Shown here: piece by piece, positions 4,708 through 27,945 of the stretch
Layout of the letters: every line of letters starts with the position of its first letter
How positions within the stretch are numbered: position 1 is the first letter of the stretch
Assembly: GCA_001630475.1 (NCBI GenBank)
Contig: KV419411.1
Location: 468,010 to 532,009, forward strand
Length of the DNA: 64,000 nt
Reading direction: 5' to 3'
Origin: Sistotremastrum niveocremeum HHB9708
Taxonomy: Eukaryota > Basidiomycota > Agaricomycetes > Sistotremastrales > Sistotremastraceae
Notes under the pieces: generated by a model
Databases searched by the model: none
The model's input: the letters and a program-made list of their open reading frames with translations, nothing else
What the model was told of the DNA's origin: nothing
Translations under genes and position numbers: made by a program

Positions 4708-4955
4708 ATGCGCACTTTCTTCTACTTGCTTGCTTTTATGCCCTGGATTTCGAACTATGCTATAGCGTCCTCAGGCACTGAGCAGGTCAATCTCCCCGGC
4801 GCCGGCAAAGTCGCAGCTACTGGCAACGGCACCAGTTCTAGCAGTGCCATTGCCGGAAAGGTCACCTGTCCTGAATTTGGGGTGAGTTTCACAGATCATT
4901 CATGCTTATACCAAATATTGAGGTGATACAGTATTGTTATGAAGGTTTTAAGTGA
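4708..4955 (+). CDS. Very small secreted protein (65 aa)
   Basis: Two exons, 4708..4881 and 4932..4955, with a 50-nt GTGAGT...ACAG intron, encode 65 aa. Residues 1-20 (MRTFFYLLAFMPWISNYAIA) form a good signal peptide. A Gly/Ser/Thr-rich linker follows and the protein ends CPEFGYCYEGFK, with only two cysteines six residues apart. The second exon codes just seven residues and would be missed by ORF-based gene finding. A TATA box is correctly placed upstream. The function is unknown. Candidates are a small secreted effector or a secreted signalling peptide; I recognise no family. Confidence 0.6.
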
Positions 4956-7900
4956 GCAGCTCATACATCCGCCGTTACTGCCGCGTGCCGACGCCGTGCC
5001 GTGTGTGGCATCCAAAGTACCTGTCACACTCTTATAATATCTATCTATTGTCATCTTAAGTGTCCATATACGGGCATAATCTTAAGTACATCTTCATTGT
5101 CGCCAGATCCCCGAGATCAATCGCGATCACCGCGATGATCCAAATCATCCTCTTGACAACGACTCCAACAGTGTTGTGAGATCCCGATCCATCCACTGGA
5201 TTAACTTTAAGGGTGTTGGCTACCAGTAGACCATGGAGGTAGAGTGCTCTTCAAATGTATAAATCATTCTCTAGTCGCCACGATGAAAGCTGGAGTAGGC
5301 CTAGGGGCATTACGCGACCAATGTGCAAGACAGTGCCAAGACTGCAAGTGCAATACTAGAAAAGTGTCGATTGTGGTCCGTTCGAACTTCGAAGCGTCGC
5401 GCGGATACGACACTCGAAGAGTTGCGGTCAAAGAAGAACACTGTAAGGAGCAGATGCTGTAGACGCTTCTGATAGGCCCAACTTGTGACTTGTCTGGATG
5501 GCCGGATGTGAAACGGTTTGATTTTTGAACTCGGAGGGGAAGGCAGAGAATGTTAACAGGGACAACTTGCGCCATTGACAGGAGCGCGTGACGTGCGATG
5601 CGAATCCCCGATGTGTTCACATTGTTCGGCGGGGTTCTCGGAGACCTAGGCCTTCTGAGCAGTACGAATTGCGTGGTGCAGCGTCCATTTCCTGCCGACA
5701 ATACAACACTTGTAGCTTAAACGAGCTCTGAAACATCAGAGAAGCTCTCAGAGTCATTCTTTCACCAGTAGAATTGCTCCAAGATGCCAGTGAGTTCCCT
5801 ATTGATGCGGAAAGACCTTGCAATTTCACAAAGGGCGGGTGCAAAAAGTCAATCACAGCCATTCCGGCAGCAGAAAGTCAACGCCACCTGGCATTCAGAT
5901 TGGCAATGCAAGGAGTCTCACAAATACAACCACTCCCCTCCGTTGAAGTCAATCGGGATCTTTCAGAGAAATCTTCCCATAGCGCGATCAGGTCTTGAGC
6001 GGTATCCCTGTATTATTTGACGGACAACTAGTTTACAGATTGAACGCTGTTGGGTATGGATTTGTTCTTGACTGGCTTAACGAGAAAAGCAACGAAGCGC
6101 GAGATTCACTCAAGTCGAATAGAGTCACAACACTCAGTACTCCACTCTAGGGGGGTCGAGAACACGATGATTCATGCTTGTGCTTGAAGAACGATTTTGA
6201 GATTCTTGCGGTGCACTGGCGGCTAACCCTAACAAACATCCCCACGTTCAAATTGGAGGAAGAAATCTTGGGAGTCATCGACACGAGTTTGCGGGACCGA
6301 GTGCGGAGACTGATCACGAAGGAGATCTTGAAGAAGATCTTCAGGTTGAACAAGAAGGAGACTGATTACGAAGAAGATCTTGAGGTCGAACAAGCACGAA
6401 CCGCCGATCCTGAGTATTCGTCAAGTAGCTCGTTTCAAGTTGATGCAAACACGTGTCATGCGGACTCCAGATAAGCTGGGACGATTCGAGACGGATCCTC
6501 CAAGGCGCCAGACGCCAATATATGTCAAGACTTAAAAGGGGGCAGAGGACTCAGGATAGCAAGGTCGAAGAGGCTGATATCTTATTTCAGTTGAAATCAG
6601 AGTGCGAGGGGTATTGGCACACCTTTAAGATCAAGAACCCAGCAGCCATCGGTTCAGGGATTGTAGGCGAGACAGCAGGAGATGGGCGATAGCCTTGGAA
6701 AGGCTGTCCATAGCGTGTCCGAGATGCGTAGCGGACTCGCTGGTACTTGCTGATATTCCGAACTCTTCATTGCTCCTGCATTTGGCCGTGAATCGGATGA
6801 AAGCGAAAGAACACCTGACTTACCAGTAAGGTCATCCCGACGATCCAGGATCGCTGAAGATTGCCAGAAAGTCAGGGAGAGGAGTCAGAGATCTCAATAC
6901 TATCAATAGAACAGGACGGCGTGGCTTTCATCGCACAACAGCACCGAGTTCTCTCGAATCAAGACCTCTTTGAGCTCAAAAAATCATCTCCGACAGGTTC
7001 AGCACTGGATCATAATGGGTTCTTGACGAAGAAAGAGCTGAAAGACAGTGACGTCGCGTCAGCGTCATCGACAAGGAGCGGAAAGGGTGACACAGCAAAG
7101 TAGTGGAGTTGGTATGGATGGGATGATGTTTACGCAGGTTCTCCTAGGAATGAACGTCAGGCAGATCAAGAATAAAGAGACTTCGAAATCAGAGACGTAC
7201 CAAAGAAGAGTGCAGATCCCAGACTCAGCCGAAGAAATTTAGACGGAGGCCCTCTATTCAACCCTTATGATGACGATGTGGACGATGAGTATGGTGCACA
7301 ACGACTCGCTCGGCGCCACGACGGCTGCGGCGAGCGGAGAGACCAGCCAGGGAAGGGGCCTCCCAAAGAACTGCCTGCAAACGCTCCACCTGCTCCAGGA
7401 AGTGGCGCTCCTGCGTGTGCGAGGCCTCAAGGGCGAATTGGAAGAAGAGATGAGGTATATTTTGATCTTAAGAGGAAATTCGATTCATACCTCCATGGAA
7501 CGGCGATTCTGACACGCTGGTGCCATGGATGCGTACAATTAGTTCTCTGGGAACAAGATCAGCATTGATCGTCGTTGAATTAGGGAGACACGTACCGTAT
7601 TCACTCATCGGAGGTGCTGAGATGTGGTCCTTCGTGAAGCGGTGAATATACGTTTGGCCGCATAGGGCGCTTGGGGCACTTCAAGAGATACGGTATGCGC
7701 GTACCGTATGGATCGTGATTGGTTGGGCAGAGGAGTAGGGCGAGGAGCCATACTCAGAACGAGGGCATGCGAAACAAACGCTAAGCGGGTATGATCTTCG
7801 GGGAGCAGAACTGTTGACACTGCTATTCTGCTTAAACGACTCGGACGTGATCATGGAACTCATAAATAGCGCACCTGCTAACTAGACCCGCAATTGGACT

Positions 7901-9793
7901 TCACAGCTTTGTACGAGCTTCGACAATTCCAACCGTGACTCAAGTTCCAAGATTGTTTGGTGCGCAAAAATCAAGGGTTTTATCGAAGATATGAGGCTCA
8001 GGTTGCGGCAGGTGAGGCGAACGAGAGAACAGATAGACCGGCTTATCCAAAGAAACAGTCATCATTGCCATGTTCTCAGCAACAAGTCAGAGCGCACCTG
8101 ATAGGCCAATCGCCCGATCTCCTCAAACCTCAATGCCCTCGCGATGACTGCAACGTGTCTTCAGGACTTCGTCCCGAAAGATTGGGTGCTTGACGTGCAA
8201 AGATGGGTGCAGGGGCCATTGTGACAAGGGTTTTAAAGACGCCAGGGAAGAGGAGAAGACGCTAAGAGTGAACCAGACATCAGTTAGCGGAGAAGATATG
8301 GTAGCGCAGATGCTCACGACGCCTTGTATTACTCAGGTTTTCTGACAGGGACAGCGTCGGAGCGCAAGTGTCAAAGATCGAGATGCATGACGTCGACGAT
8401 GAGAAACTTGATGGGGATTGCCCAAGGTGTGCCGAAGACGACTGGAGCTAGTGAAGTGGACACGACGGAGAGACGGAGAGGGGATGGGGGTGCTCCGGCC
8501 TGAACGCCGAAAGACCGAAACCTACAGAAAATCAACCAAGAATAATCAAGCAATCGATTTGGCCCGCAGAGGCAATATTTCTCGGAAGTGGACTGGCAAT
8601 CCTTTACTGCATTTGATTTCTTGGAAGCCGTCTAAGCAGGGGTCGCACGGAGGAGAGTGCTTGCGGGCGGTTGCAACGGACTACTGCTAATGATCTTAAT
8701 CGACAGATCTGAACAGCGGCAACGGTAGAGTCGGGCTCTGGCATCACTCTTATATCAGAAGCGGCGTACAGGAAAGTATCGAAGGATGCGATAAAGTTTC
8801 ATGCCAACGAAAAGAAGAAACTGACCTTGAATTCGCCGAGACCGGACCAAATTGAAAAACGCAATTTCGAGACGACGAATGAACGAAGAAGGAAGTGCTA
8901 TCCAGTAGATCAGTAAAATTAGATGTCATAGTTCGAGTTTGAAAAAGCAGCGAGCCGCACCGGGACAACGACGAAAGAAGAAGGCCCTGCTGGCTGAGAG
9001 CGAGGTCCGAGGTGCGAGCACTAGAGGTGTAGTACAGGAGACTCCAATCTGGTTAGGAGGAGGAATCTGCATGGGAGATTGCTGTGAAGCTAAATCGCCC
9101 ATCCTGAAGGCAAGAGGTTGACCTTGAGCCGTACTTGTGCCCTCTTGGGAATGGGCACGAGCTTGATCGAGCGACAAAAGGAATTGTTGGTGAAGAAGAG
9201 GTTCCGGCGGATTTGCAAGGTGACGAAGAAGAGAATCGTGGTTCAGAAGGGCGAGGTCTTGGGGAAAGCATGGATGTATTTTGATCTGAATGGATCAATG
9301 CATCCAGATCAAAAACTTGAGGCAGCTCAGAAGCGTGCACACGCGATGAACTCGATGACAGGGCCAATGAAGACGACAGACTCTCAAGAGACCAACTTGC
9401 CAGGAGAAGAACTCGTTCATGGAGTACCAGTAGCAATGACTGCGGAAACGCGAGGGGACCGCACGAAGAAAGAAGAACTGCTCACAGCAGTCGATGCAGT
9501 ACTGATTTGGCGAGGAGATAAAGGGCAACGGATGCAAGCGCATGTTTCTGCCCGTGTACACGGGAATGCCGAAGCCATGCATGGTCAGGTAAAGGTTGGC
9601 ATCTTATTCAACCTGGACATGACGATATGTAATTACATGAGATGAAAGGTCCAGCAATGAGTATTAATGAAGTGTAGTGAATGTCAAGAGAGTACAGATT
9701 AAACAACATAGATTATGAGATGGGGAGGCGTGCGACCGTAATAGATTCGAATTGATTTGAATTGAAACTTGATACATTGAGCAACACAAGCTA
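4956..9793. other. Purine-rich gene desert, possibly decayed coding DNA
   Basis: Nearly 4.8 kb without a gene I can support. Many short open frames occur on both strands, and the + strand is markedly A/G-rich from about 5.8 to 9.6 kb (GAAG, GAGA, AAGAAG runs). The recognised genes here tend to be pyrimidine-rich on their coding strand, so the bias would hint at old coding on the minus strand, but no domain emerged there. Cysteine-pair fragments appear near 5.32, 5.60 and 8.19 kb on the + strand. One of them, GCLTCKDGCRGHCDKG around 8187, superficially resembles half of a Zn2Cys6 finger. None connects into a gene model. Confidence 0.4.
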
Positions 9794-12700
9794 CTAGTTG
9801 ACTTCACTCTCGAGGCGGGACAGTTCAGAGTTGGGATGACTAGGATCATATGGCTTGGAGGCGGTGTTGGGTTCTTCTCCGAAAGGGACGAGGCCGTACC
9901 ATCTACACCAGCGATTGCAACGGTGTTCTACGGGGAAACGTTCGTGCGCAGCGCTGACGTTCCCGGCCGCGAAGAGGTTGGCACCTAGGGATCTGTAGAT
10001 ATGGTGTTGGGTCAGCTTACAAAAGTCTCCAGACAAAGAAATGAACGCTTACGCGTTGGTCATGACTTGGGCGTCGGTCAACAAGTCACCAGCACCTAAT
10101 TGAACAGCTGATCAGAAGGGATCAGACCGCCAACGAGGCAAATAAAATATTTACCTTGAAGGTCCGACACGTATAAGAGACCCTTAGTCTTATTAAAAGT
10201 GATGTGTTGCTGACAGACAAGCTGGTCGGCAATCTCAGTTTCGGCAGCATTCAGGCCAGGACATGGTAGAGCGCTGCCGTTGTTGATGTACTTTACGAAC
10301 CGAGTGTTGGAGGTGTCGATAACTTCCTCCAAAATGAAGTGCTGCGTCCTCTCGGTATTAGCAATGGCGAGGGCGAAATTGACGAAACGGAGGTTGGCGA
10401 GAGGGGCGGGAGGAGGATGGGTATGGGCACGTCGCTGCATAAGGCTCCTGCCATGATCATGGATGGCTCGAGCCCAGACCATGGTGGTGATTTCGCCTTG
10501 AGATTCGGGAATTTCGTTCTCCGGTAGAAGTCGGAGGGCTTCACCTTGTTGGAATTGGCGGGCATGGAAACGTTTGACGGCAACTTTGGCCTGGCCATGT
10601 ATGTGTTGCCCGAGTGTGTTATATGGGTTGGCGAAGAGTGAATGAGCGCCGACGACAGTGCTGCGGGCAAATCGGGTAGTGAGTTGTCCAAGGTAGCACG
10701 TCTTGAATGATCCGGGGGAACCAAGGATGTGCTTGTCATTCCACCGTAAGTGGCAGTTGATTGGGGATCCCTCCGAGAGCTCGAATGCTGGTTGGGTGAG
10801 TGTCTGCAACTGCTGCCACGTGAAAGGGGCGTATTCTTGCAAATTAACCACACAGAATTTGTCCCCTGGCGGTCATGATGGGGTCAGAACTTTTCATAAG
10901 TTCTATAAGAAGGGGATGGATTTACCTTTTTGACCCTGGCCTCGGGTTTGAAGGCCGAGAGCATTACGCAAGCCATCTCCAGCGTCGTCCTCGGCGAGAA
11001 GACCTTCATTCGACGACGATGGCAGAGGGCCAGTGGGGGAGTGGACCTGAGGACTTTGTGATGGCGAGGGATGGAGGGTAGAGCCAGCATAGGAACGGCC
11101 GGACGGGGTCACAGCTGACTTAGTGGGGATGTGTGGTGAAGGGTGGGAGGTCGTGATTTCCTTGGATGGAATCACGGGCGTCGTTTGATTCGGCAGGAAT
11201 AGCGGATTGGATTCGGACTGAGCGTTCCGAGATTGGGAAGGAGTAGACTGATGCGTTTTGGACGGGGGCGTGGGAGTCGCAGCGTCGGGTTTGGGCTGAG
11301 GTTCTCGGGAGGGTTGGAAAAGAGGAGGAGGACCTGGGGATGATGCGGGGTGTTCAGAAACGAGAGGAGCAGGAGCGGCATGGAGAGCAGTTGGGTTCGG
11401 CTTGCGTCGTTTGGAGGGTCGAGGTTCTTCGGTTGGCTGCAGGAGCTCTTCGTCCGAGTGAACTTGGTCCAGGCGACGGCGAGGAGCCTGGGCTTCGAGC
11501 TGTTTGAATTAAAGGTGAATGGCTCTTTTGGTTGCATAAGAAAGAAGTGTCCGTACCTCTTGATCGCGCTTCATTTCTAGAAGTCGATCGTTCTCCTGCT
11601 CAGTCAGACAGAGCACGATGGTGGGAGACTTCCGGGCAGGGACTTTCTTCTGGCCCTTCTTTCTCTCCACAACTACTCCATACACTGCTAAAGGCGCAGT
11701 CCCATTCTCAGACTCCTCGTATGCCATATCCACATAGCCGTCAGTGATGTCCCGCAAAGATAGTTCGGCGTCGACCATTTCGCAGCCAAAATGAGTCCGA
11801 AAAGACTTGGAATATTTTCGTACGAGAATGGCACGTAGTTCGTCGCAGGTGGAGTTGACTGGGATACTAGTGAAAGTGTCTTTCATGTTCTGGGGCCTCG
11901 TAAGCGCAACTGTGACATATAATGCGACAAACTCTGACTTACGGAAAGGATCTGTGGCTTTTTCGAAGAGGCCCCATTTTTCAAGTAGGCGACTCCGGCA
12001 GTGATCTGGATCTTCGCACTGGAGGCGACAGACGCGCGAGGTGGAGGTGGTGGCATGGCGGCTGGGATGGGATCGAGACGGGCTTCAGCGATCTTGGCAT
12101 TCCGCGTCTCTCGATATTGCAGGTGGTTAGCTGTGTAGCCTGCCACACGAGCGTGAGCGGAGGATTGGGCTGCAGGAAAGATTCCAGGTGGAAATGGATA
12201 TGGATATCCCGGAGGGATCGCATGGGGATGATAAAATTGACCGTACTGAGCTGGATAGGCGGGATAGGGATTGGGTGCGACAAGAGCAGGGGTGGGGGTG
12301 AGAGCAGATTGGGCAGAGACTTTCCGAACAGGGACATTTTCGCCTGTAGATAACGAAAGGAGTGTGAGGAATTTGTGTTTCGGGCGATAACGTGAGGACT
12401 GACCACGCTGAGCGGCGTTGACGTTGACACGGATGTCCTCGACGTTGGCTCCTAGGTATAAGAGTGAGTCGTGGTGCCAGAGATTGCCGAGAGATGGGTA
12501 GTTACCTCCTGATACTGCTGAATCCTGTCGCAGAGTTCGCCTGACGTTCTGGCGATTCTTGGCGTCCTGGTAGCAATCCAAGCAGACTGAGCGATAATTG
12601 GGTACCACATCAGTTTTTGGCGCCGCGACAGGAGGAGGGGCCGATGTAGGATTTGCAGTTTGGGGGTCATTCGGAGCGCGAGGTTTCAGAATGTTGACCA

Positions 12701-12806
12701 GCTTGACATCTTTGGCCTTGACGACCTTGTGGCAGCGTTGACACTCCACAGAGACATCTTGAGGGTCGGTCATGTCGGTGACATCGAGGACGGAGGGTGC
12801 TGACAT
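9794..12806 (-). CDS. Alpha-type (atypical) protein kinase
   Basis: Exons 12806..12506, 12451..12404, 12343..11943, 11889..11557, 11499..10926, 10865..10155, 10095..10053 and 9992..9794 give 869 aa. Alpha-kinases (eEF2 kinase and myosin heavy chain kinase family) phosphorylate Ser/Thr and are unrelated in sequence to ordinary kinases. The N-terminus has two Cys pairs (CQRCHKVVK, CLDC), a Pro/Tyr-rich middle and a low-complexity Ser/Pro linker. The catalytic domain lies in the last third: VAVKRFHARQF (likely ATP-binding lysine), FILEEVIDT, FVKYINNG, HITFNKTKGLLYVSDLQG spliced to AGDLLTDAQVMTN. It closes with HRCNRWCRWYGL, the C-terminal zinc-binding Cys motif of the family. Mushroom genomes often hold expanded alpha-kinase sets. 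The substrate is not predictable. The first two introns are multiples of three, so retention would not break the frame by length alone. Confidence 0.85.
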
Positions 12807-13600
12807 GACGGAGTGATGGATGTACTGGGGCAGTTGCAAGTTGGATGGCGATGTAGTGAATGTGGTGAAGGAAATGGGGGGAAATTTGGGGGCGAGTGGG
12901 TCGAGGGAGGTCGATATGTGTTATGCGATGAAGGACATGGCACAAAATTTTCTCCAAGTTTGATGTGGCAGAGATGCTCAAGGAGATGCTCATTCGTTGT
13001 GGGTGGCCTGCAAATCATCGGCATAAGCGAGGACCGGGGACAGAAACGGGCTCATTTGGGGATGGCAACGGGTGGCAAAGGATTGTCAAACAAGTCGATT
13101 TCATGCGGAACGAGGTGAAGCCTGAATAATGGCCGTTGATTGAGATCGATTGAGCTCGAGCCTTGAAGGGACACGTTGTTCGGTTACACTAGCCGAGCTC
13201 CCGGAGAATGCCGGTCGTGCCAGCCTGAGCCTTGAAGCCACCTCTAGATCTGCTCGCCACGATTAATGTATTACCGGAGCAAATCTGATTTGGAATCTCA
13301 TTTCGATCCAAAATTCGCAGAGACCGTGAGTCATCTTGAACAATTGCATCTTGATCTCGTGAATATTGATGTCTCAGAGGACGCGTCATGGGTTGGCCTA
13401 AAATGGCAGAAAGACAGTCCAGGTACCTTTGGACCAGACAACGACTGTGTGGCTTGTTGGTCGACAAAGCAATAGGAGGGACAATAGGATGACGGCGCAC
13501 CGCAAAGGATTGTGCTCGTACTGGATTTGTCCAAGTCCCTCCAAGTCTATCTGTCCCAACTGTATCAACCATCGCTCTCAGGCCATACGCGCTCAAATCC
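12807..13600. other. Intergenic region, no gene seen
   Basis: It contains the divergent upstream regions of the alpha-kinase and the integrase gene. No motif or repeat stands out. Confidence 0.4.
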
Positions 13601-15452
13601 ATGCCTCGTGAGCCCAATGAGCCCCGGAGACGTCAGCCGAATCAACACAAACCTCGACGTGAGTGTTATGCGTACTTCGTGTATGAGGACTAATTCAAGT
13701 TATCCTACAGCGAGCGACGCGCTCATGGAACTGATACTGCCGGATATTCTGGAGAGTCATCGATTGAATATACCTGATACTGAAGCCCGGCGTGATCTCC
13801 TTGAGGACTTTCCAGAGCTTGAGAACTGTGCTTTCAGGTGAGTTGGCACTTGGATTTCGAAGTCCCAACCCATCGTGGACCTCCCCTTGCGTAGCATCTT
13901 CACTTTCCGGAAAATCAAGAAAGACCTGGACTTGATTGGGACCCGGGGGCAAGCACATACTGTGGAAAGTATCGATGCGGCTATCAGCCGCATACGGCGA
14001 CACTTTCCAGATATCGGTTTTCGTGATCTGAAGAGGCACCTCAATCTCGACGAAGCCATGAAGGTACCCATGTGAGTGACCAGCTTTCCGACATATATTC
14101 TTCCAATCTGGATGGGATTAGGCGAGTGATCAAGGAGTGGTGTCGAGCGGTTGAGCCGGGTCGGATCGCTCAGAGAAAGAACAATCGCCTGAAGCGGCGC
14201 AGGTTCTGGTGTGCTGGTGTCCATGACTTATGGTGCGTCGATCAGAACGACAAGTTCATGAGATATGGACTCCGACTGCACGTCGGCGTTGACCCATTCT
14301 CTGGCTACATACTGTGGCTGAGAGTGTGGTGGACGAACAAGAATCCAATCTTGATTGCGAGATACTTCTTCGATGCGGTGGCCGAACATGGAGGTGTGTC
14401 AGCTTTCCTAGGATGTTATTCAATATTCGGGAGCTGACGATTTCGACCATGCAGTCATACCAATGATCACGCAAAGTGACCCGGGCACGGAAAACTATGG
14501 CATCGCCAAAGCTCAGACTCTCATGCGACATACTCTCGACCCGACTCTCGAAGGTACACTCCAGCATCGGTTCATGCGAGATCATCAGAATGTCAAGCCC
14601 GAAATTGTTTGGTCTCAAATGTCCCGCCGGTTTACTCAGGGCATGAAGAACACTCTTGATATCGGTCACAACGGTCAATTATACCAAAACATGGATGTGT
14701 CGCAACAGTAAGTTTCCTATGTCTGTCATTCCACGGTTCTGAAGTTCCTTGTAGGATGATGTATCGTTGGCTGGTATTCCCTCTCATGCAGGCCGAACTA
14801 GATCAGTGGCGCATGCTCATCAATGACTCCAAGAAAGAGCCCAACAAGAAGAGTCTCCTCCCCCAAGGTATTCCGTCACGAATCTTTCGGAAACCACAAA
14901 AGTATAATGGTTTGAACTTCGGCGTACGTGCGCTTTTCGATTCCAATAGTCCCTTAATCTGATGTTCCCCAGATTAATGTCGATGACGAGACCTATCAAA
15001 TGGCCGTCAACCAAATCTCTCCTCCTGAGGACCCGGTTTTCCAATGTGTCCCCCCTGCTTTTGCTGCTAAGGCCGTGGAGTTGGCGACGACGTTGCCACC
15101 AGGCTCGTTCCCAGTCCATCGCGAGAATGTTTGGGAGACTTTTGCGGCCATGATGGACGCCTACACCCACTGGCAAGCCCGTGCCCCTGCGGACCAGACG
15201 CTTGGAATGCGGACAGCGCTCAATGAACGACGCGCCTTTGAGGACGCTCAAGTGGAGGTGCCTTTGGATCCCGAATTGATGCCCGCTTGGGGTCGGCAAA
15301 TCATGGATCTTCGAGATGGTCTTCCCTACCTCGATGAAGACGGTCGTGCCGTCTTTCTCAGAGAAATTGAGCCTCCGTTACCTCAATCTCTGTACGTGCA
15401 GCCAGACTTACAGCTCTCTGCGGGAGCGTGGGAGGAGTTTGTTGACGAGTGA
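13601..15452 (+). mobile_element. Stand-alone integrase-core gene, apparently whole
   Basis: The gene looks intact: ATG at 13601, six short introns (about 47-61 nt) with normal GT-AG borders, and a stop at 15450-15452, for 511 aa. An alpha-helical N-terminal part precedes a retroviral-type integrase core (rve superfamily). The core has WCVDQNDKF (first catalytic Asp near residue 161), ITQSDPGTEN (second Asp near 220) and VKPEIVWSQ (likely Glu near 261). The motif set with WCVDQND, GVDPFSGYILWL and TNKNP is characteristic of an intron-bearing integrase family found as dispersed single genes in Agaricomycetes. No LTR, polymerase or capsid gene is attached. It may be a cut-and-paste element's integrase or a domesticated copy. 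Broken relatives lie just downstream. Confidence 0.75.
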
Positions 15453-15571
15453 TACTTCATCGTTGGACTTGTGTTTTGTTCAATAAGTTGAAACTGCTCT
15501 GGTAATAGCTTGCCTAATGAAATACATAACAAACGCACTAGTATATTCGATCCAAAGCATGGTCGACTCCC

Positions 15572-15621
15572 GTATGTAAACTTGTATTCGCGTCTCGTGT
15601 CTAGAATACAAGTTTACATAC
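15572..15621. repeat. Perfect 18-bp inverted repeat (hairpin) 3' of the integrase gene
   Basis: GTATGTAAACTTGTATTC at 15572..15589 is perfectly repeated in inverse at 15604..15621, separated by a 14-base loop. It starts 120 bp past the integrase stop. It could be part of an element end, or a small hairpin affecting 3'-end formation. Confidence 0.7.
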
Positions 15622-15879
15622 CATTCCTGTGATGCATTCTCAGAGCCTCATTCATTGACGTCACTGAATATGCACGGCAATTCATCATCCTGTCATATTG
15701 AAGCCCTTTTGCACCACCGATTGTCGTCTAGGCCACGCACCTTTCCGCCGATTTGAATCCAATCTCGTTTCAAGACAATAGCCTGCAAATAAGCGCCCGC
15801 ACCCCTCCTCTTTCCCCACTACCGACTCTGAGCCACCCTCAATCTCTGCAACGCGTTCGCCACATAAATGCATCCTTTA

Positions 15880-17140
15880 TCAAGGCCTTGTCGCCGTTCT
15901 GCCTTTCCCAAGCAACATGCCAAGCCTCCGACACTCCAGACCACAGGCGATTGAGGCGCTTTATCGCACTATCGTCAGACACCCTCTTGACCGTTCACTC
16001 GCCCTGATGCACCATGTTCGTAGTGAAGAGAGAGTTCTAGACTTCACACTGTGAGTCATCCGCCATCAACAGTCCTTCACACCTTCAGTCATCTCAATGG
16101 CATGCAGCGAAGAGATAGACTACGTCCTCGCACGTATCCGTCGTAACCTATCCCGGCTCACACGTCAAAATCCCGTCCCACCCGTGCACCAACCTGCCCA
16201 GAATGTGAATCAACGGTGGATCTCTGACATTACACTGCTGTCCCACCGGCATCACCTCTCCCTTTCCTACGGTCTGGACGAGTTTTCTGGGAGGATTCTG
16301 TGGCATGACGTGCATGTGAACTGGGATTACGATACCCCTGCACGCTCAATGTTGGAATACATTGCAGGAATGGGCAGTAAGTCTATTCTCTGAACTCCTC
16401 TTAACCTTCAAAGATCTCACTCGATCCCGACATCAGTGGCCCCTTTGGAATATCACTGTACCTCCGATCCCAGCCTCGCCATCAACGCACTTGCATTCCA
16501 CTCTGTTCAGCAGCATTTTCCCGCTGACGTTCGTCCTCTGGCCCAATTTCACTGGATCCCACCCTTCCATAATCCTCGCCATGAAAATACTCACTCACAT
16601 CTCCGCCACGCTCTTTTGGAGCCCATTCGTGAGGATCTAGACACCACCCCCATCATCCAACTTCATCCGGCATTTGAGAGTCTTCCGGACGACCTCAACG
16701 CTCATGATGGATCGCGTTATGGGTAAGTGCACCTACTCCGCATCCGTCAGTCCTCATCCACTTACATTTCCTCAGCGATGTTCTATTGGGATATCTAAGT
16801 GCACATGCCCAAGCCCAAGTCTCTGCCCGAGTCCGTGAGTGGAATTGTCAGCTCCCTCCTGCCTCAGCACTGCCCTTCCCCGTCGCTCCTCCGACGGTCA
16901 TTTTCGACCAACCACACCGCTTCGGAATCATGAACGGAGGCGTACGTGATCATCGCTTCCTTAAGCCCCACTATACCAATTAAATTCCCGCTTTTCAGGT
17001 GGATGTTAATCGAGACAACATCCGCAACCTTCTGCCGCGTCAACATCTTACTCACCCAAGCCAGGCCATGCTCCTGAAGCGTGTTCAAACACGAGCTCAG
17101 ACCTGGTGCGATCGCCATCGTGTCCCGTGGCCTAGATGAG
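15880..17140 (+). pseudogene. Fossil copy of the integrase-core gene (copy 2)
   Basis: Same orientation and family as the whole copy at 13601. It shows the same order of blocks: a linker with paired prolines, WISDITLL at the first catalytic Asp region, LDEFSGRILW, CTSDPSLA at the second Asp region, and a C-terminal part containing IFDQPHRFGIMNGG. The catalytic surroundings have drifted far from the whole copy, so it is an old duplicate. It looks broken in a few places. No terminal repeats were seen. Confidence 0.55.
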
Positions 17141-17689
17141 AACTTGAAGGAAACCAAATTCACCTCACGGCCAGACTACGATGGAACACTTCGACGTTGG
17201 TGTCTTTGTCCCATGTCCTTTTCCAAATCAGGTAGTACGCGATAATCTTCCCATTCCATTTCTTGAATATCTCTTTGAACCCCAAAATGCAATACCAATT
17301 ACTCCATGCTGCTTCCAAAATTATGTTCTTTGTATGTCGCGATCGAAAAATCAACGTATCATACTATAACTTCGATATAACTTCGAGAACTCAGGAGAAT
17401 CGACGAGATGTAATCCCTGATCCGCTCTCCCACGCCCCAACTTGATCCGGCTGATGCACTGTAAGCCACAGTCCTTCATCGTTGTCTCTCCAGGAGCCAC
17501 AGGCCCACCATCCATGCCACCTTACCCTTCGAGCACAATGGCTCTTCAATCTTTCCGTGTGGAAACAGTTCCTTAGCCGCCTCGCACTCTGCCACAATCC
17601 CAACCACGCCTTTTTGCCAATATAAACCGTCACTCATCACCCCTCGTCTTCCCAACCCTCCCTCGCTCGCCAATACCCAAGATCACTCA

Positions 17690-18300
17690 TCGTCCCAGAG
17701 CATTCAGAGCATCCATGAACATGAGTACTCCACGCCTCACCCTCCCCGACACCCATTTCACCCAAAATGTTGCGACGACTCCCCGCCTCCCGCTCATCCA
17801 TGTCCAGGAAATATTGCAAGCTAACTATGGCATAGCTGTGTCCATGTAAGCATCTCCCTCTCCTACTTTATGACGACGCACTCATCCTCTTTCTTCGTCA
17901 TCAATAGCGCTGACCTCGCACGGCTCGTTACCTATGCCATCCGCGTCCAATTACAGCCAAACCCTCGCCTCCAGGCTCCTCGCACCCCCCCTCTATACCT
18001 ACCGAGATACGAGATCAGTATGGTGAACGACTTGTGGTGGATGGACCAAAACGACAAATACGCGTCCTTCCCATTTCGAAACCGGACTCCTCTCCAACGT
18101 CTCGAGCACACCGCATACTTGCTCTTGCTCACCCGGATACAGCACGTTGCGCGTCTCTCCAGGACCATGCAAGCTGAACAACTCCTCCCTTTACTTGAAT
18201 CTTCGTGATAGATAGTTCAATCAACGCTGTCCACTTTCCACCCCTATTCAAGTTAGAACTCTACTCATAGCATATTTGAGTGCACACGCCAATACAGTAC
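17690..18300 (+). pseudogene. Fossil copy of the integrase-core gene (copy 3, partial)
   Basis: The segment carries an N-terminal-like stretch and the block ISMVNDLWWMDQNDKY, which matches HDLWCVDQNDKF of the whole copy. After that the similarity fades. It is broken, with several interruptions, and truncated. The bases around 20.1-20.7 kb may be the far end of the same copy, separated from it by drift and by the MITE at 19404. Confidence 0.45.
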
Positions 18301-19395
18301 CACCTTTGACCCGATCAGTTTTGCCACGCAATGAACTATCTACCTCTCTGTCCAATCTGAGCACACACTGTTGTAGAATGCGACAATGTCGAGCAATCGA
18401 TTCTCCCTCACACGACCACCCGCTCGCCTGTTACCGACCTCTACATCTGTCTCTACATCTGTCTCTCCATCTATAGCGAGCCTCGGACTAACTATGAACA
18501 GCATGAACTGATTTTGAGCTCTCCCTAGGCAACTCATCCAGTGAGAGCCCCCTGAAGTCGCTTCGGAAAGCTTAATCAGAAGAGCGCTCACATCGATTGG
18601 ACTGAGTGATCCGAGTCATACCCACCAACCTCAATTCTCTGGGCCATTTGCTCTCCCCTTCGTCGATAATGTAGCGTCAGATATCAACGCTGAGTATTTT
18701 TGGAATCTCATGTATTATTCGCTGCCATATCTGATGTGTATTTGAGTCATCTACGAACGCGCCTCGAAACTGCCTAGTCAAAGCAAGGTACGCAAGCCTC
18801 ACGCTAACGTCACCACGGGCGCCTATTTTCGACGTGATCACGTTCATTTTACCATCATCTGCTATACGACGCCAATTTGCTTCTCCCTCATCTCATCCAC
18901 CAATGCCAGCTCTCTTACTCAGTGATTGCGCTCGATAATCACCCTCTGGAACATCAAGCTAGCCTCGTCTCGACAGGAATGCCAGCGTTTCGACTTCGCC
19001 AGTGTCGGCTTCAGCGGAAACACGCTTGTAAAACGAGGCTGGCCGAGAGGAATTAGGAGAGAAGTCGAGGACGGGGTTTGAGTTGTCAAGGAGTCTGAGC
19101 GATTGGATAGGAATACGGCATGAGGCATGAGGCAAAGGAAAATGGCACGACCCATCGTACGCTCGATCGAGTCTCAAATTCCACTCGAATTTCGTATACC
19201 AAGCAAGCTATTGAGCTATGTAGCATATCACAACTTTGATCCCCTCTGCACGCTACCTACACGTCTCCCAATCCATATAACGTGTACGCTTCATCCTCGT
19301 TCCTCGCTTGATCCCTACATCTTGCTTTCCTGGACTCAACCGGTCTACGTTCCCCTCCTCTCGACTCTAGTCTCATTCCATTCGACTAAGGGTCC
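18301..19395. other. Decayed spacer, probably remains of the integrase copies
   Basis: Pyrimidine-rich on the + strand like the integrase fossils, but without any block I can align. No host gene is supported. Confidence 0.3.
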
Positions 19396-19403
19396 TTACA
19401 CAT

Positions 19404-19919
19404 TAGAGTTTGAAAGTCCGGTTGCGACTGGACTTTTTCACTTTTTGCCCGTGACTGGTAACTGCCGGTCCGGTTGCCTGTCAAAATTTTGCATGACTGG
19501 CAACTGCAACCGGTTGCAGGGTCCAGCAACCAGTCACAAAAAGACCAGTTGCCTGACCAGTCATGGCCAGCAACTGAGGTCACAACTGGTGTAAACCAGT
19601 ATTTTAATCAATTATATATTGTTTTTGAGTCTTATTAGTGGCAATATAGTGTCTATTATCACATAGGAACACTATATTGTACCATATTTGATGAATACAT
19701 GACCATAAATGGTCACTTGACACCCAAAATACCTTTGGTGTACCCTTTCCCAGGGCCCTTAAGGGTCCTCAGTTGCGACCACGGTTGCGACTGGTCATGA
19801 CTGCAGTTGCCAGTTGCCTGAATTTCAGAAATCCAGATGACCGGCAACTGCAGTCCAGTCACGACCTCACCACGACCTGCGGTTGCCTGCAGTCACATGG
19901 ACTGGACTTTCAAACACTA
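19404..19919 (+). mobile_element. hAT-type MITE, family A, copy 1 (516 bp)
   Basis: The element begins TAGAGTTTGAAAG and ends CTTTCAAACACTA, a 13-bp terminal inverted repeat with one mismatch. It is flanked by a perfect 8-bp target-site duplication, TTACACAT (19396..19403 and 19920..19927). An 8-bp duplication with TAG...CTA ends is the signature of hAT transposons. The interior is non-coding: an AT-rich centre flanked by many copies of the short words AACTGG, CAACTG and CCAGTC, which look like subterminal transposase-binding repeats. A second 516-bp copy lies inverted at 40921..41436. Confidence 0.9.
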
Positions 19920-20139
19920 TTACACATACTACAGCAGACATGGGATATTCCGCCCGAATGGACTGAATTAATCATCCATTGTACCTTGTTCACCATCAAT
20001 GTCTCAATCACTCCACTCTTTGCGCCACCATTGCTTTTCGATCGCGGGAACCTAAGCAACACCTCCAGCCGCTGCACAAGATCGACTAATCCGACTCTAT
20101 CCTTCACCTAACGCCATGCTTCTTTCTCTCATTGGGCCA

Positions 20140-20700
20140 TCTTATCTTGACCGCAGCTCCTCAGCCCTCGCCAGTCATCAGAAGTCCCGCCTCTTTGAAA
20201 GGGACTCGAACAATCTGGATGTTGCGCAAAGCAGAGACATTGAACGTCTTAATAGAGAGGTCTGGTACGAGGTTGAGTGAGTCTCCGTCCCGAATGCCTG
20301 GCTAACACTCCTTGATATATGGTGGTTCCGAGTGCCAGTTCCTGAGGACTCGGCCTGGGAAGCCCAGTCATTCCACCTGTCTCACGCCTCTTACGCTCAG
20401 TCCATGCCGCTTTCCAAATCAACATAAAATGGGAGACATGTACGACCTGCTCCAATCATTGATATCTTCTCCCAACAATCTCTTGCAATGCTCAACGCCA
20501 AGAGACGTGCTCCGGGTGCCGTCTACTCCAGCTGTACCTAGGCAAGTACAATCCTGGACTCCATATCTCACTTTGAACATGATTAAATACTCTATACAGC
20601 ATATATTAAGGAACGTCTCTTCTTTCTCTACGCCCCCGCTTGTGGCACAGTACACTTATTTGGAATTACCATCCGAATACATCTTTGCGCTGTAGTCCGC
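20140..20700 (+). pseudogene. Possible distal fragment of an integrase-core fossil
   Basis: A weak resemblance to the C-terminal part of the whole integrase (a block ending IERLNREVWYEV against HRENVWETF). It is broken. The assignment rests mainly on strand, position and base composition. Confidence 0.25.
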
Positions 20701-20759
20701 GGTGAGTCCTGCGCATCCTGACTTTCCATACATCTCCTGCTTCGTCTCGAGGTTTTTAA

Positions 20760-22290
20760 GGGGTCAAAGTTCAAGTGGGTATTCGCCGATCGGTCTCTGC
20801 GAAGTCCAAATCAGTGTTTCCTTTGGATCATCGCATCGAGAGCGAAAACCGATCTGCGACATCGTTGCCAATCAGAAACCGCAATGACATTCCTTTGACC
20901 ACACAAGCTTCGACGGTGAACGTAACCGGTCCTTCGTCACCTGGGCCCCAAAGCGGAATACTCGTGAATCCGCAGACTTGAGATTGGCCAGTCACTTCGA
21001 CCAGGTTGATCTTACGGCCTTGTTTCCTCTTTGGTGAGCTTGCGATTCTTGATGTGACCCTTTCTGATCAGTGTGATGTTCACTCCATAATCTGTCATAC
21101 ATGCGGTCTTGTTTTCACCGTAGTCCATCAAATGTCCGTCCGCTTACCCGCTCTTTCGTCCTGACTTTGGAGTCTTCGCACCCAGAAAAGAGGACCCAGG
21201 CGGTCAGCACTGAAGCGCTCGGAGGCCAATAACATTAAGAAAAGGGTATGAATGATGGATCCTGAACTCCGTGTGTTGTACCGTCGCCATAGCATCTGAA
21301 TGAATATCTTCAAAGTTTTCTGGGTTTTCTGACCTCAATCCCCCCTGTGCAGACAGAACTCGCCTCGAGAGGTCCCCACGGGTGAGATCTACATTTCGAG
21401 ACACTCTAGAAAATGGTTTTGAAAAACGTCTTCATCCTCGGAGACCACTTCGTAGTCAGATACCTCAAATCGTGAGACGCTACATCCATGACATCATCGT
21501 CCGATGCGTCCTCGTAATAAAGACTCGTAATGGAGATCGTCATACTCGTCCTGAGCTCCTTCGTGATTCCCATCGGTCGTAGCCGCGTTTACTCTCGCGT
21601 GAAGACCTCCTGGGCCGAGGGCACTCGTGCAGTCATTATCCCAATGCTTGGGATTCCGCAGTCTCGACACGGACGATCAAGATTGACAGTTCCACTTGGT
21701 GTCGGATTCTCAGCCCGGGTTGCTGGAGGAGTTCGATTTGCCAGTGGGCAAGGTTGAGTTGCTGGACTACCGGTGTGTGTTGTATGGTCCGATCGTTAGT
21801 CAGATACTTTCTGATCTCAGATTCCTCTGTAGCTTGTTGATTCAGCGCGATACTGGCAGAACGATGCGGAGTCGAAGTTGCTGGCACTACGCGACTGAAG
21901 CTTGCCTCTCTCGGCGGTTCTCCTTCTCTCAAGAACTCAGGTATGGAGAACGATTCCGGATATCGACCTGTGTTTGCTAAACCAAGGGGTTGTCCCAACC
22001 TGTTTTCAAGGGCTTCCACGGCGGGATTTCTTCCAAATTGCTGCTGCAGAGCCTGAAACGTTTCATAAGTTGGGGATGGTTGAGGTTGAGCAGAGAGAGA
22101 TGGTGTGTTCAAGTCCGGGTGAGTCGACGACTTTCCCCTGTGAAATTTGTTGACCGATTCTACTCCTCCTGTGCACGTACATCCGCCTTCGGTCTCTCGA
22201 AACGTGTGACATCACCGTTTGTTTCTTCTTCGAACGATCCGGCAAACTGGATGGGCGAGCAGTCGGTCTAAGGGTTGGTTCAGTCACCGC
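20760..22290 (-). mobile_element. Ty3/gypsy-like retrotransposon fossil (gag-protease part)
   Basis: The minus strand carries a Gln/Pro-rich gag-like stretch (beginning MNTPSLSAQPQPSPTYETF). Further on is a retroviral-type aspartic-protease region with the block VTFTVEACVVKGMSLRFLIG followed by NDV, matching the family pattern EAYVV-GM-VPILLG-D. Reverse transcriptase, RNase H, integrase and LTRs were not found next to it, so this is a truncated, broken relic with several interruptions. It lies opposite in strand to the integrase copies and appears to be independent of them. Confidence 0.5.
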
Positions 22291-24698
22291 CTTGACGAAG
22301 ACAGTCGCATCTCTAACAACTGTCTTTCCTTTCTCAGTGCCTCTGCTTCAGCTATTGTGTTCCGTAACCTTAGTCTAGCGCTGCAAATTAGATTCGGTTA
22401 CCTTGCTAGGTGCCACCGACATCAGTCTTCCACCGTCTGAGTTCCTCGCAATCCGCTCATGGTTCTTCATGTCATAATGCACACAACGTAATCTTAGGAA
22501 CCTGGTGACGTTGTTTGTCAAGAATAATGCTTAAGAATACTACCGGAATTTCGAACTCGTTAGCGTCCTATAGCCCTGTATGACTGTGGGTCTCATCTCC
22601 GCAGAATGGAATATCTGGATACTCAACCCCGTTCGCCTAGAGAGGGGGCTGCGCTTCGCCCCGATCTCTTGTAACATATCCAGGCCGCGATCGTAAGCGC
22701 TGCTGTCTATCCAATGGAAATTTTACCTTTCATGCTAAACGGGGTTCCTTCTAGAGACTGCTGGCTATAATCGAACAAACGGTTCCAGGACTGCCTTTGA
22801 ATTTGCGTCGTTTGGCTGTGAGGAGCTTCAGGTGTGTATGTCAATCCATTTCAAGCCAAATCCAGAGCCCTGAGCCTACGACTTTCTAGTTCAGGTATAG
22901 GGGCTCAATCGCGGATAGTTCTCGCCGTGTCGAAACATCCACGTCCAACCACATGGATCGCAGCAAACCCCTCAAATCTTTCAGCATCTGCAATGACAGC
23001 TCTGGGTGCTTTGAGATCGGATACCGTTAAGATGTCGCTTCCGGGATTCAATCATGTGATGTCTCGTATGAGATTCTGAGTCTGAGATATGGCTCTGAAT
23101 CGCTGACATAACTCTTTTTGTATCTTATTTTGCTCCCTAAGAATCACAAATAGCAAGTAGAATGGCCAACAGTTGTGAGCGCGAGTACTGAGTCTCTACC
23201 CTGCATTCTCCCATTCAACACATCCATGACTAACTAGAATGAACTATGCAGAATGAACTACGCTTCAAAGATATTGTTCTTCCACGGCTTTGACAACGGC
23301 TCAAGAACAGAGCGCACATCACAGTCACCCTCGGCGAATGTCTTGGGAAGAGCCCGTATAATAAGGATGGAACGACGCATCGCACTACAGTGCATTGGGG
23401 AACCGATTCCGGCTCTCCTGTCTTCCCGAGATTATCGGATGCTAGTACGGTCTTGATTTCCGCGATGAATCCCTCTGAAATATTCTGCATTTGCTGAACG
23501 ACCTAAAAGCACATCGTCATCGAAAAGCCCGAGTGTCCGGCGCGCGCTCATTTTCACCGTCATCACGGTCATTCTGCAGTACGACCTAATGGCCTCTACA
23601 CATCCAACTATGACTAGACTAGACTCGACCATTCAATGGTGACTCTCACCGCTTGTCTGTTGCCTCAAACCTCTGCTGCCGGTACACCGACATGCTGAGA
23701 CACGGGAAACGATGATATGGCACCACAGTGCTCACGCGATCACGTTGGGATCAACTCAAACAATCTTATTTGATTACGCGCCTCTGCCGAGTATCTGAAT
23801 CTGAGATGCGGATATTTGAAATAGTTTATTGTGGTCACGTCACGCTCGGCACCGGCGGTAAACGTCTACAACCGAGCGGAGTTGGGCACGACGCGAGCTG
23901 CTCACTTAAAACCTTCATAATTGTACGTCTGACCTGCAATGCGGAGGTGTGTGCTATATTTTGGCCTGATGCTCAGTTCACTTCCCTAAACCGTTTTGTT
24001 AGGGTGCAGATGCATTACGGAGATCGGGGTATGTGTCCGTGATTAGCTTTCTAAGTCTCCAGTTGACTATGGGGGAGAGCGTGTTGTGACAATGGCAAAA
24101 AAATGTTGCTCAAGATCAAGTTTGTGTTGATATGCCGCTATTAAATCGATATTTGTTGTGACTCTCTCCTTGCGCACATGTGGCTTCTGGAGTAAGAATC
24201 CAGTTTCACCTAATTCAAGAAACCACGGGTGTTGATGTCTCCAGCGCCGTTGACGGGATTGTCGACCAATTTTGGAGCCGAGTTTCGAACTTCAGCCAAT
24301 ATTAATGGCATCAGTGACAGTGACGGTTGAATTTAATTGCTAATGACCATTTCAAGGTCAACGTCGGAGTTAATAGTCATAATATAGGAGAGAGTTGACC
24401 ATTCATGCATTTGACATCTAACACTTGTTCCAAGACTGGAATATTTAAAATCAACGCAGCTGCCAGCCGGACGAGCTGCCGGGCCGCTAGCCGCTGAGCA
24501 CAATTTTCATGCATTTTATGCCTGTGCCTGTTGGCATACCACTCTGCGCTCATAAATCACAAGCAGTGATTTGGCCCGCCTCTTAATCATTCTCGACGAC
24601 GACCCGGACAGATGATGAACATCACGAGCTGGCCTAATATCATGGACGAGAGGCATTCCACGGGATGACCTGTTGATCGCGCAATCGCAGGTGATCCC
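22291..24698. other. Gene-poor region, no gene supported
   Basis: A minus-strand stretch around 22.83-23.08 kb reads as plausible old coding sequence (containing SDLKAPRAVIADAERFEGFA) but is interrupted and unrecognised. The rest, up to the first oxygenase promoter, shows no motif. The last 400 bases are AT-rich and probably regulatory. Confidence 0.35.
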
Positions 24699-24704: not shown

Positions 24705-24764
24705 ATCCAGAACCCATGACAATCCGGGCGTGCGTATCTAATCGTCTTGCACTATCACAGCGTC

Positions 24765-26136
24765 ATGACCAGCTCGACTTTCCAGAGTATACCCATTCTC
24801 GACTACTCCTTATCGCAGGGGCCACAAAAGCCTCTCTTCCTGAACCAGCTCCGCCACGCTATCATCAATGTTGGATTTCTATACCTCAAGAACCATTCTG
24901 TCCCGGCTTCATTGGTCGAAGAGGTCAAGGCCTACACCCCAAAGTTCTTTGAGCTACCTCAAGCGACGAAGGACAAATTACGGATGGCGAATTCACAGCA
25001 TTTCCTAGGCTATTCACGGCTGGCGGCTGAGATAACAAAGGGAGAGGTGGATCAGCGGGAGCAAATTGATATCGGGACAGAGTTCGAATGCAGATATAAA
25101 GAAGGTGATCTTATTTTCACGAAACTATGGGGGAGATCTCAGGTACGCATTCACTGTCGGTTTGATACCGAATGTGTTCCTGATTGTCATCGTAGTGGCC
25201 CGATGAAGCAGATCTTCAGGGATTCAGAGCCGTGGTCACTGAATATTTCGATTCGGTGGCTACGCTCAGTTATCGCTTCCTCGAGCTACTTTCCGAATCG
25301 TTAGGTCTGGCTCCAGATGCGTTGAATGCCTTCCTGAGAGACCCGGTGGACCTATGTCATCGCGGGAAGCTTGTCAAATACCCTGCAATACTTCCCGGAT
25401 CATCAGATCAGGGAGTCGGTCCTCATTTTGACGCTGGGTTTCTCACATTCGTGCGTAGTAAACCGTTTCAGCATGGTCATACGAAGCCCAAAGCTCATCA
25501 TGGTTCTCCTATAGCTTCTTCAAGTCACAGATCAGCCTGGGCTACAAGTCCAGAATCATAAAGGAGAATGGATCGCTACTTCCCCGATTGATGGCACATT
25601 TGTCGTGAACATCGGCAAAGGTTCTGCTTCTCATTCTTCCCGGTTCTCAAACACCTTCCTTACACTTGTTACGCAGGACTCGAAGCAGTCACTCGGAACG
25701 TGGCACTCGCGACCTCTCATCGAGTGTTATCGCCGCCCGTCGGCTCTGGACCAAGATATTCGATCCCCTTCTTCCAAGCCATTAGTCAACATGTCCGACT
25801 ATCCGACTATCATCTAGATTGTATGTCTCTCTTGCAAACATGAAAATTCATATTTGGGTCTGATCGGAATCTCAGTTCCTCCAGACGTCATCGAATTGCG
25901 GAGCGCCCGTGGAGACACACATGTCGATTGTAAGTGATTAATTTCCCCTGTGTGTCTTGGGTGATTCTTGACTTCTCTTAGCTGTCAACTATTCCGAGTT
26001 CAAGACCGATTACGCGGGTTTGGCGAACCTCATTGGTCGAGTGAAGAGTCATCCCGACGTTGCTGAACGACATTATCCGGAACTCTTCAAGAAATATTAT
26101 CCCAATGGCATGCCTTTGAAGGCATCAGCTTATTGA
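24765..26136 (+). CDS. Fe(II)/2-oxoglutarate-dependent oxygenase, tandem copy 1
   Basis: Exons 24765..25142, 25196..25450, 25515..25620, 25677..25820, 25876..25929 and 25982..26136 give 363 aa. The fold is that of the isopenicillin N synthase-like family: an N-terminal cap (PILDYSLSQGPQKPLFLNQL, then INVGFLYLKNHSV) and a C-terminal jelly-roll. The iron triad is complete: H203-x-D205 in GPHFDAGF and H261 in LATSH. R273-x-S275 (GPRYS) should bind 2-oxoglutarate. Such enzymes hydroxylate or desaturate small molecules in secondary metabolism, and the substrate cannot be told. I chose the ATG at 24765 because copies 2 and 3 align from the same point. Copies 2 and 3 lie downstream with the same exon order and almost the same exon lengths. 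Confidence 0.88.
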
Positions 26137-27874
26137 TGTTGCTGGTGTGCACGATATGGATGTAGTGCGCCATTCGTTGATGGGCGATATAATCTAGTTG
26201 CTCAACTGCCGTCGTAGTCTCATGGTCTATGACATTCAATTATGACATGACAGTGTTTGTATTTGTTGTTTGTATTCTAATTCATTGTTACGTCTTGTTT
26301 GTCGCGCGCGCCTCTTCCTTCCTTCCCATTGTTTTCTCCTGCAACGCCCCTATGATCGCCCGCATAGCCCTCTCAGCAGTCTTGTTAAGTCATTAGGAAA
26401 GCTGCGCGTCATCTTGGCGTAGGAATCCACACGGGTTACATACTAAGATAGACCAGCACGAACCCTTCCCTCGCAAAATCGTTCACTTTCATGCGGACCC
26501 TCCGAACGGGCTTTCTTTTTTGTATGTGAATTCGATCAAAAGCAGACCATGTCAGGAGATTTTCTCATGGTGGATGGATGCCTGCAGCTTATGACTTCAT
26601 CGGTACTGAACAAGTAGTAGTGTCACCTAGGTTAGACATGCCCGTCTGCAACTTCCAGCGCTCAGCGCTCAGGGACCAGGAACTTCGAACGCTGCTCGAT
26701 CATTCTATAAGTGGAGGGGTTCTGCGCCGCCGATCACTCAAGGAGATGACAGGGTTCTGCGATGATGTCTCCTTTACTATCAAGGGTTCCATCCGTGCAA
26801 AATGGTATAAAAGGAAATGAACAATTCCTTTTCGTGGGTCGTGTTCGGTGCTATAAGGAAGGTTTCTATTGCTGTTCTCGGGGTGCCTTCTTAAGAAACA
26901 TTGACTAAAACGTTCCATTCCATGCAACAAACTACTTCGGGATCTCGTCTTATGACAAGGCGGTTGAAAAGTATTGCATGAGTCGTACGCGTTGCCTCGA
27001 ACTCTCGTCAGCACGGCTACGGATAAATACGCCTCCCTTCCATGCCTCCTTTCTCATTTAGATGTTCGGTCCATGGTTGTTTCCGCCATCTATCAACTGA
27101 CCAGGAGTCGGTATTAGCAGAGGAGTCTCTAACGCAAAGATCTTAATATCCATTTCCCTGAAGATCGGTCCATGTGTGTCATTGACGGTCATTGGCTTCA
27201 CACAGACTCGGTTTTCAGTGTAAAATGACGCGCACGAATGCAGAGGCATTGCGATATGGAGTAAACCTTGCAAATCGCACTTCTTGTATAAGGGGGTAGC
27301 CCCTCAATGATGCCACGGGCCGCACCTCTGGTTATGCCCACCTCTAACGCCGTTTTTCGAGTTTCTCAAGAGTTTCGGAACCAACGGGCGATCTACAGCG
27401 TGGTACGGTGCTCTTCGCTTGACATTACCAACTTGGCGATGGGACTGACTATCTAGCCACTAAGGAAAACCAATCTCCGCAAGTAAGTACGTGCACCCCT
27501 GTATAGGGCCAGAGCCCCGGGATTCAAGCGGAAGTGAGCGGGTCTCACTGTTCATCTTCGCAGTAACTAGCTCGAGGCCCCTGTCGTGGCCCCTTGGTCA
27601 ACGTCAGCCGAAACTTCCGAAAGAAACAAATTGAGGTAATATATAGCGCTACGCTCGAAGAAACATCTTTGGTTGAGGAGACCAAAATAACAACAAGATT
27701 TATCCTTTTGTGAAGCGGGCGGTTCAAGACTGACATGCGTTGTAGCTCAATGGGTCACAAGCTTAGCCACTCGTAGCCAAAACGTTGTCCCTGTGTCACG
27801 GACATTTCCCCGTAACCGAAATGCTCGCTAGGTGGGCTCATACGTTGACACTCACTCAGGAGACAGATTTCCCC
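26137..27874. other. Spacer between oxygenase genes 1 and 2
   Basis: No gene is supported in 1.7 kb. A minus-strand open frame at 27058..27273 looks somewhat coding-like but has no recognisable family. Transposon debris is possible. Confidence 0.35.
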
Positions 27875-27880: not shown

Positions 27881-27945
27881 AACCGACGAACAAAGTCCTA
27901 GAAAGCATTCAGAGAACCTACCTCGTTAACCCTCGATTCTCTATT

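Follow-up and report, generated by a model that had tools for sequence, protein, structure and literature searches.

A two-copy, probably IS3EU-like transposon of Sistotremastrum niveocremeum carrying an alpha-kinase gene and a constrained integrase-derived paralog

Here, we report a transposon of 18,982 bp, with paired terminal inverted repeats and a target duplication, in a 64,000-nucleotide stretch of the basidiomycete Sistotremastrum niveocremeum HHB9708 (the window; GenBank assembly GCA_001630475.1, contig KV419411.1, positions 468,010 to 532,009, forward strand). Three of its genes, the integrase-type gene A, its relative gene B, and an alpha-kinase gene, are open and constrained across two diverged copies of the element (Table 1). 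Our favored reading, which we consider likely, is that of an IS3EU-like element in which gene A inserts the element, gene B acts as its partner or regulator, and the alpha-kinase controls transposition. A first-pass annotation of the window had described a cluster of stand-alone integrase genes and suggested two origins for it, an integrase-only element that is still mobile or a protein retained by the host.

Table 1. Features of the transposon and of a later insertion within it (window coordinates)
Feature	Position	Strand	Evidence or remark
Whole transposon	4938..23919	.	25-bp ends, 5-bp duplications, second copy on contig C5
Left target duplication, ATTGT	4933..4937	.	
Left terminal inverted repeat, 25 bp	4938..4962	+	
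Alpha-kinase gene, modelled, 887 aa	9794..12806	-	Pfam PF02816, E 1.6e-13; constraint
Alpha-kinase gene, exons	12806-12404, 12343-11943, 11889-11557, 11499-10926, 10865-10155, 10095-10053, 9992-9794	-	
Intergenic stretch, kinase gene to A	12807..13600	.	94% identical between copies
Gene A, DDE integrase-type transposase (likely), 511 aa	13601..15452	+	Pfam rva_4; dN/dS 0.07
Gene A, exons	13601-13658, 13711-13837, 13895-14071, 14122-14393, 14455-14707, 14755-14923, 14973-15452	+	
Gene B, integrase-derived protein, 331 aa, five exons	15917..17139	+	Homology to A; constraint
Gene B, exons	15917-16050, 16108-16376, 16437-16722, 16776-16941, 16999-17139	+	
Gene C, 143 aa, exons 17715-17845 and 17908-18208	17715..18208	+	Motif resembles A's first-aspartate region
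Dispersed repeat, 516 bp, later insertion inside element	19404..19919	.	8-bp duplication TTACACAT; absent from C5 copy
Right terminal inverted repeat, 25 bp	23895..23919	-	Exact inversion of left
Right target duplication, ATTGT	23920..23924	.	

When the 34.7-Mb, 111-contig genome that holds the window was searched (the window copy lies on the contig here called C18), genes A, B, and C recurred in unchanged order on contig C5. Comparison of the window with C5 gave a sharp left edge followed by approximately 130 bases with one mismatch; 24 bases of this edge were found exactly inverted at 23918-23895, and the next base extended the repeat to 25 bp (TATGAAGGTTTTAAGTGAGCAGCTC), with ends reading TATGAAGG..CCTTCATA. 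The second copy (C5:709795-727474) was 17,680 bp long, had identical 25-bp ends, and was flanked by the 5-bp duplication GCCCC rather than the ATTGT of the window, giving 5 bp in 2/2 copies and perfect inverted repeats (25/25 bases) in both. BLASTN of the window flanks against those of the C5 copy found no similarity. The probability of a 5-bp duplication match at both copies by chance was ~1e-6, and that of 50 end bases staying unchanged at 17% divergence was ~1e-4 (sites treated as independent). When up to three mismatches were allowed, a 21-base core of the end matched the genome four times, all exactly and all at the end pairs of the two copies (backward-sequence control, one match per strand). 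Shared terminal repeats at the flanks of several copies, which the first-pass annotation had proposed to look for, were present at both copies, and the random decay without element ends that it had named as the opposite outcome was not found for this pair.

The two copies were 83% identical over 17,012 aligned positions; with just two copies at this divergence, there has been no recent burst. Identity was mosaic (200-base steps), reaching 94-99% at the kinase domain (9801-10600), 96-98% at 13001-13800, and 93-94% across most of C, and falling to 54-78% over 16001-17600, which holds most of B and sequence beyond it.

Gene A was confirmed as the complete 511-amino-acid frame with six normal introns (GT-AG, 47 to 61 nucleotides [nt]) and all catalytic acids that had been described at first pass. 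Pfam PF24764 (rva_4, Integrase core domain) matched residues 155-322 (E 1.8e-12), and the catalytic positions were D161, D220, and E261, the last two separated by 40 residues; the D, D, and E positions were invariant in 4/4 A-like cores aligned. An IS481 transposase model matched weakly (E 1.5e-4, far below the model cut-off), and a PDB sequence search with A returned a single match that was not meaningful (E 0.3). Exon lengths and splice sites were the same in both element copies, which differed by 54 synonymous and 15 nonsynonymous changes (nonsynonymous to synonymous divergence [dN/dS], 0.07; synonymous divergence [dS], 0.18), with only 35 synonymous and 2 nonsynonymous changes in residues 1-345. 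Neutral evolution would give counts such as these with binomial probabilities of 5e-23 (A), 6e-29 (B), and 1e-24 (kinase gene). A is likely the transposase of the element, and the stretch between it and the divergent kinase gene is a possible promoter region common to both.

The kinase gene lies on the minus strand, divergent from A on the plus strand, and its PF02816 match covers profile positions 71-185 of 185. Splice sites were present in both copies, and dN/dS was 0.22 for the gene and 0.097 for the kinase part (just 12 changes), counted on a 907-codon model still containing one 60-nt intron. Treating that 60-nt stretch as an intron, which both copies allow, removes the sole stop codon of the C5 copy; alternative splice choices are possible.

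Alpha-kinase matches also occurred beside two further, diverged A-like loci of the genome. The alpha-kinase cut-off was passed at at least 11 places (one gene may yield two), and five loci were counted as A-like (C18, C5:718k, C38, C5:373k, and C55), with the weaker A matches on C32, C36, and C9 and the rva_4 loci on C16, C13, C40, and C23 excluded. An alpha-kinase place lay within ~6 kb at four of the five, namely, at the two element copies and, independently, at C5:366.7k and C55:112.9k; the fifth locus, on C38, lies ~0.8 kb from the contig end, and no kinase place was listed on that contig. The expected chance of such a neighbor within 8 kb was ~0.005 per locus, and by coordinates, none of the 20 other rva_4 loci had an alpha-kinase place within 10 kb. 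A tblastn search with a piece of the window kinase gave no match in the stretches examined, outside which the kinase domains at C5:366.7k and C55:112.9k lie.

Two relatives of A in the same orientation directly downstream, as first annotated, were recovered as genes B and C. B alone had no Pfam match; its homology to A was detected by pairwise BLASTP across A residues 154-356 (E 1.8e-6, without composition correction) and by hhalign (probability, 82%; E 1.1e-5). Of its four introns, two coincide in alignment column and in phase with introns 4 and 6 of A, a third is in the phase of A intron 5 but seven columns off, and the last lies outside the alignment. The description of these sisters as dead was wrong for B, because B is open and constrained in both copies (331 codons, no indel, identical exon lengths; dS, 1.09; dN, 0.14; dN/dS, 0.13). 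At the columns that are catalytic in A, the window B carries D85, D145, and E184, the C5 copy has alanine in place of the catalytic glutamate, and a B-like stretch on C55, near the A-like gene there, shows glycine instead of the first aspartate (an assignment made by eye). With this variation, the catalytic set is not kept among B proteins, while the frame of B is; B is probably a non-cutting integrase copy kept intact by selection. B and the stretch behind it (16001-17600) diverge far more between copies than the rest of the element, yet B remains open. A dS of about 1 for B, against 0.18 for A, suggests exchange between element lineages, and a diversifying history could likewise have produced this divergence. 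Gene C resembled A over only ~25 residues at the first motif; it was open in both copies, with a dN/dS of 0.76, indistinguishable from neutral, and is probably a decaying fragment. Our literature search, outside which lay Repbase, supplementary tables, and most subscription papers, found no constrained, catalytically altered transposase paralog described for such elements.

Published descriptions place the element as probably IS3EU-like. One study describes TET-bearing IS3EU families of fungi that pair a transposase with an alpha-kinase in opposite orientations and, for rust fungi, IS3EU elements that carry a TET/JBP gene and have 6-bp duplications, repeats longer than 30 bp, and ends TAYGG..CCRTA (PMC12730594). 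Compared with these, the window element is alike in its integrase-type DDE transposase, opposite-orientation alpha-kinase, and ends beginning TA..TA, and it differs in its 5-bp duplication, 25-bp repeats, end sequence, and two extra integrase-derived genes. A search for the TET/JBP family PF12851 found no match in this genome, and control genomes were likewise without a match. For IS3EU, a second source reports TA..TA termini and duplications that are usually 6 bp; its duplications are 6 bp for GingerRoot and approximately 4, 15, or 25 bp for IS481EU (PMC10045372). It presents IS481EU and IS3EU/GingerRoot as eukaryotic relatives of the bacterial elements IS481 and IS3, to the first of which A has its weak match, and the element ends TATG..CATA agree with its TA..TA termini. 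Given kinase pairing and TA..TA ends but a 5-bp duplication, larger size, and genes B and C, we call the element IS3EU-like and not a proven member.

Other known systems are more distant. Styx of Zymoseptoria (7.9 kb at full length, with four coding sequences and 6-bp duplications, and observed to insert anew within a pedigree) is likewise a fungal multigene element with inverted repeats, and its transposase is related by its authors to IS3EU; it differs in having two genus-specific genes, and the excerpts of that paper mention no alpha-kinase (PMC10853768). GIN1/GIN2 (PMC2836005) and Imagin (PMC12863088) are intron-bearing integrase-like genes under selection, as A is, but are Ginger1-derived host genes, whereas A still lies within complete element ends. 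Starship elements are also large fungal mobile elements with other genes aboard but use a tyrosine recombinase and belong to Pezizomycotina; the window element has a DDE-type integrase. No paper on this integrase family in basidiomycetes, or domesticated in fungi, was found in the literature search.

In the mechanism that we favor, A would bind the 25-bp ends and carry out insertion with a 5-bp stagger. Its shortened paralog B, in which the third catalytic acid is not kept, would either join A at the ends as a non-cutting partner or regulate it, and the alpha-kinase would phosphorylate A, B, or a host factor and thereby control transposition. Purifying selection would then mostly be selection for mobility along element lineages, with exchange between lineages accounting for the far greater divergence of B than of its neighbors. 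That the element is mobile at present and expressed, like the parts assigned to B and to the kinase, is inferred. Several findings weigh against this interpretation: there are two copies only, ~83% identical; the duplication is 5 bp in both, against the 6 bp reported for IS3EU; kinase and A share one orientation on C55 and at C5:373k, unlike in the window; and 7/11 alpha-kinase places are away from any A-like or rva_4 locus. The leftmost ~4.9 kb and the rightmost ~5.7 kb of the element lack a convincingly constrained frame, the frames listed outside the named genes having ratios of ~0.4 or higher or ratios based on a couple of changes; weak constraint on these is possible. The measured constraint may have acted before the last insertion, after it, or both, and therefore does not establish present activity.

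A bolder version of this mechanism, to which we give only tentative credence, is a two-part transposase in which A would cut and join, B would be a selected structural or targeting subunit, and the alpha-kinase would be an on/off switch, the 5-bp stagger marking a lineage of its own beside IS3EU. Under it, the B-like gene beside the A-like gene on C55, with glycine for the first aspartate, would be an older case of the A-B pairing.

Domestication, in which the integrase genes and kinase of an old transposon were kept for a host function and both copies are now host genes, would account for the strong purifying selection seen in all three genes (A, B, and the kinase), the low number of copies (two), and the lack of a recent burst. 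A host gene has no need, however, of perfect ends (conserved by chance at only ~1e-4) and 5-bp duplications at unrelated sites, and the loss of ends expected of a domesticated gene is not seen, both copies having intact ends and duplications. We regard domestication as unlikely, and it is not needed as an explanation. Of the first-pass suggestion of a host-retained protein, the purifying selection was borne out (A dN/dS, 0.07), but this selection was measured between transposon copies at different sites and is therefore no demonstration of domestication. The suggestion of a still-mobile integrase-only element likewise held in part: perfect ends and duplications at unrelated sites in 2/2 copies support the mobile element, and the integrase-only description was rejected, as the ends that enclose A enclose an alpha-kinase gene and a constrained B as well.

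A simple segmental duplication, in which a 13- to 19-kb region happened to hold the integrase genes, would fit the collinear similarity that C18 and C5 share over ~13.5 kb but not a similarity that begins exactly at an inverted repeat, is closed on the other side by its partner, and is bordered by duplications at both copies; it was rejected for these features and is highly improbable. An equally poor candidate is a Polinton/Maverick-like or viral element, for which the 15- to 20-kb size, integrase-type enzyme, and inverted repeats would speak, for here the ends are merely 25 bp and a kinase gene is carried instead. No polymerase B, capsid, or reverse transcriptase family matched among the window open reading frames scanned against Pfam, those of the element included (a selection, exon by exon), in agreement with the first-pass statement that polymerase and capsid genes are lacking, and 0 of 82 pattern matches in IMG/VR viral contigs were confirmed as relatives of A. 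The element ends are inverted repeats and not long terminal repeats.

On the transposon reading, a puzzling spliced integrase gene finds its place within a mobile element whose ends are exact, and mobility becomes directly testable. It is a caution that intron-bearing integrase genes in transposons can pass for domesticated host genes, and it suggests that a transposon may retain a probably non-catalytic transposase copy under strong selection. It also provides a further fungal pairing of transposase and alpha-kinase besides rust-fungus IS3EU, making the part of the kinase in transposition testable.

A weak tree of 20 short core sequences (84 columns, long B branch) separated the A-like and B rows from the 14 others (support, 96/96) and joined B to the window's A (support, 86/79). 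Pair comparison of the other rva_4 loci covered 15 of 20 (one in part), and the closest pairs were L057/L058 (85% over 4.5 kb) and L006/L062 (81% over 2.7 kb); at 81-85% identity, there has been no recent burst among those loci either. L057 (C4:795500-801500) and L058 (C64:82000-88000) each hold a canonical rva_4 integrase gene and, next to it, an opposite-strand long frame, a pair partly present also on C26 (L056, ~70%); it is perhaps another multigene element, and no ends were found in the stretches examined. A diverged integrase-like family with the motif WSLDGHDKL (L029, C32:23392-26598; L031, C9:88165-91509) is absent from the PF24764 places, its similarity to A being mainly in the C-terminal part.

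A scan for inverted ends (at least 14 bp plus direct duplications) found, besides the element ends, pairs inside inverted copies of a dispersed repeat (window and L052) and one further 14-bp pair with a 5-bp duplication (window 45160-63041), of a size expected by chance. It found no pair in the joined C5:373k, C55, and C38 stretches and covered mostly ~3 kb per side at the other rva_4 loci. At C5:708595-709794, at least 399 open codons precede the C5 copy (399 within the 1200-base limit used), and joining its flanks as an empty site added 27 after the junction; insertion into a host gene is possible. The window flanks joined in the same way gave no long reading frame.

The 516-bp repeat inserted in the window copy does not belong to the ancestral element. 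It has ends TAG(A/T)GTTTGAAAGTCC and 8-bp duplications, and it also occurs at window 40921-41436, where the duplication is about TTTACTGC, and at at least 39 near full-length places elsewhere (39 of 261 candidates scored); it resembles a hAT-type element that is short and non-autonomous. For the window's right half (44-64 kb), no comparable copy was present elsewhere in the genome. A sub-threshold DUF6535 match was present among the window open reading frames scanned; with the peroxidase and tyrosinase domains given below and the short introns, it would fit an agaricomycete. From ~0.8 kb right of the element, three related tandem frames with DIOX_N (2-oxoglutarate dioxygenase) occupy window 24720-32076, followed on the minus strand by a fungal peroxidase extension domain (41818-42303; E 9.9e-30) and by exons with a tyrosinase domain (57869-60312; matches at 58435-59100 and 59770-60312).

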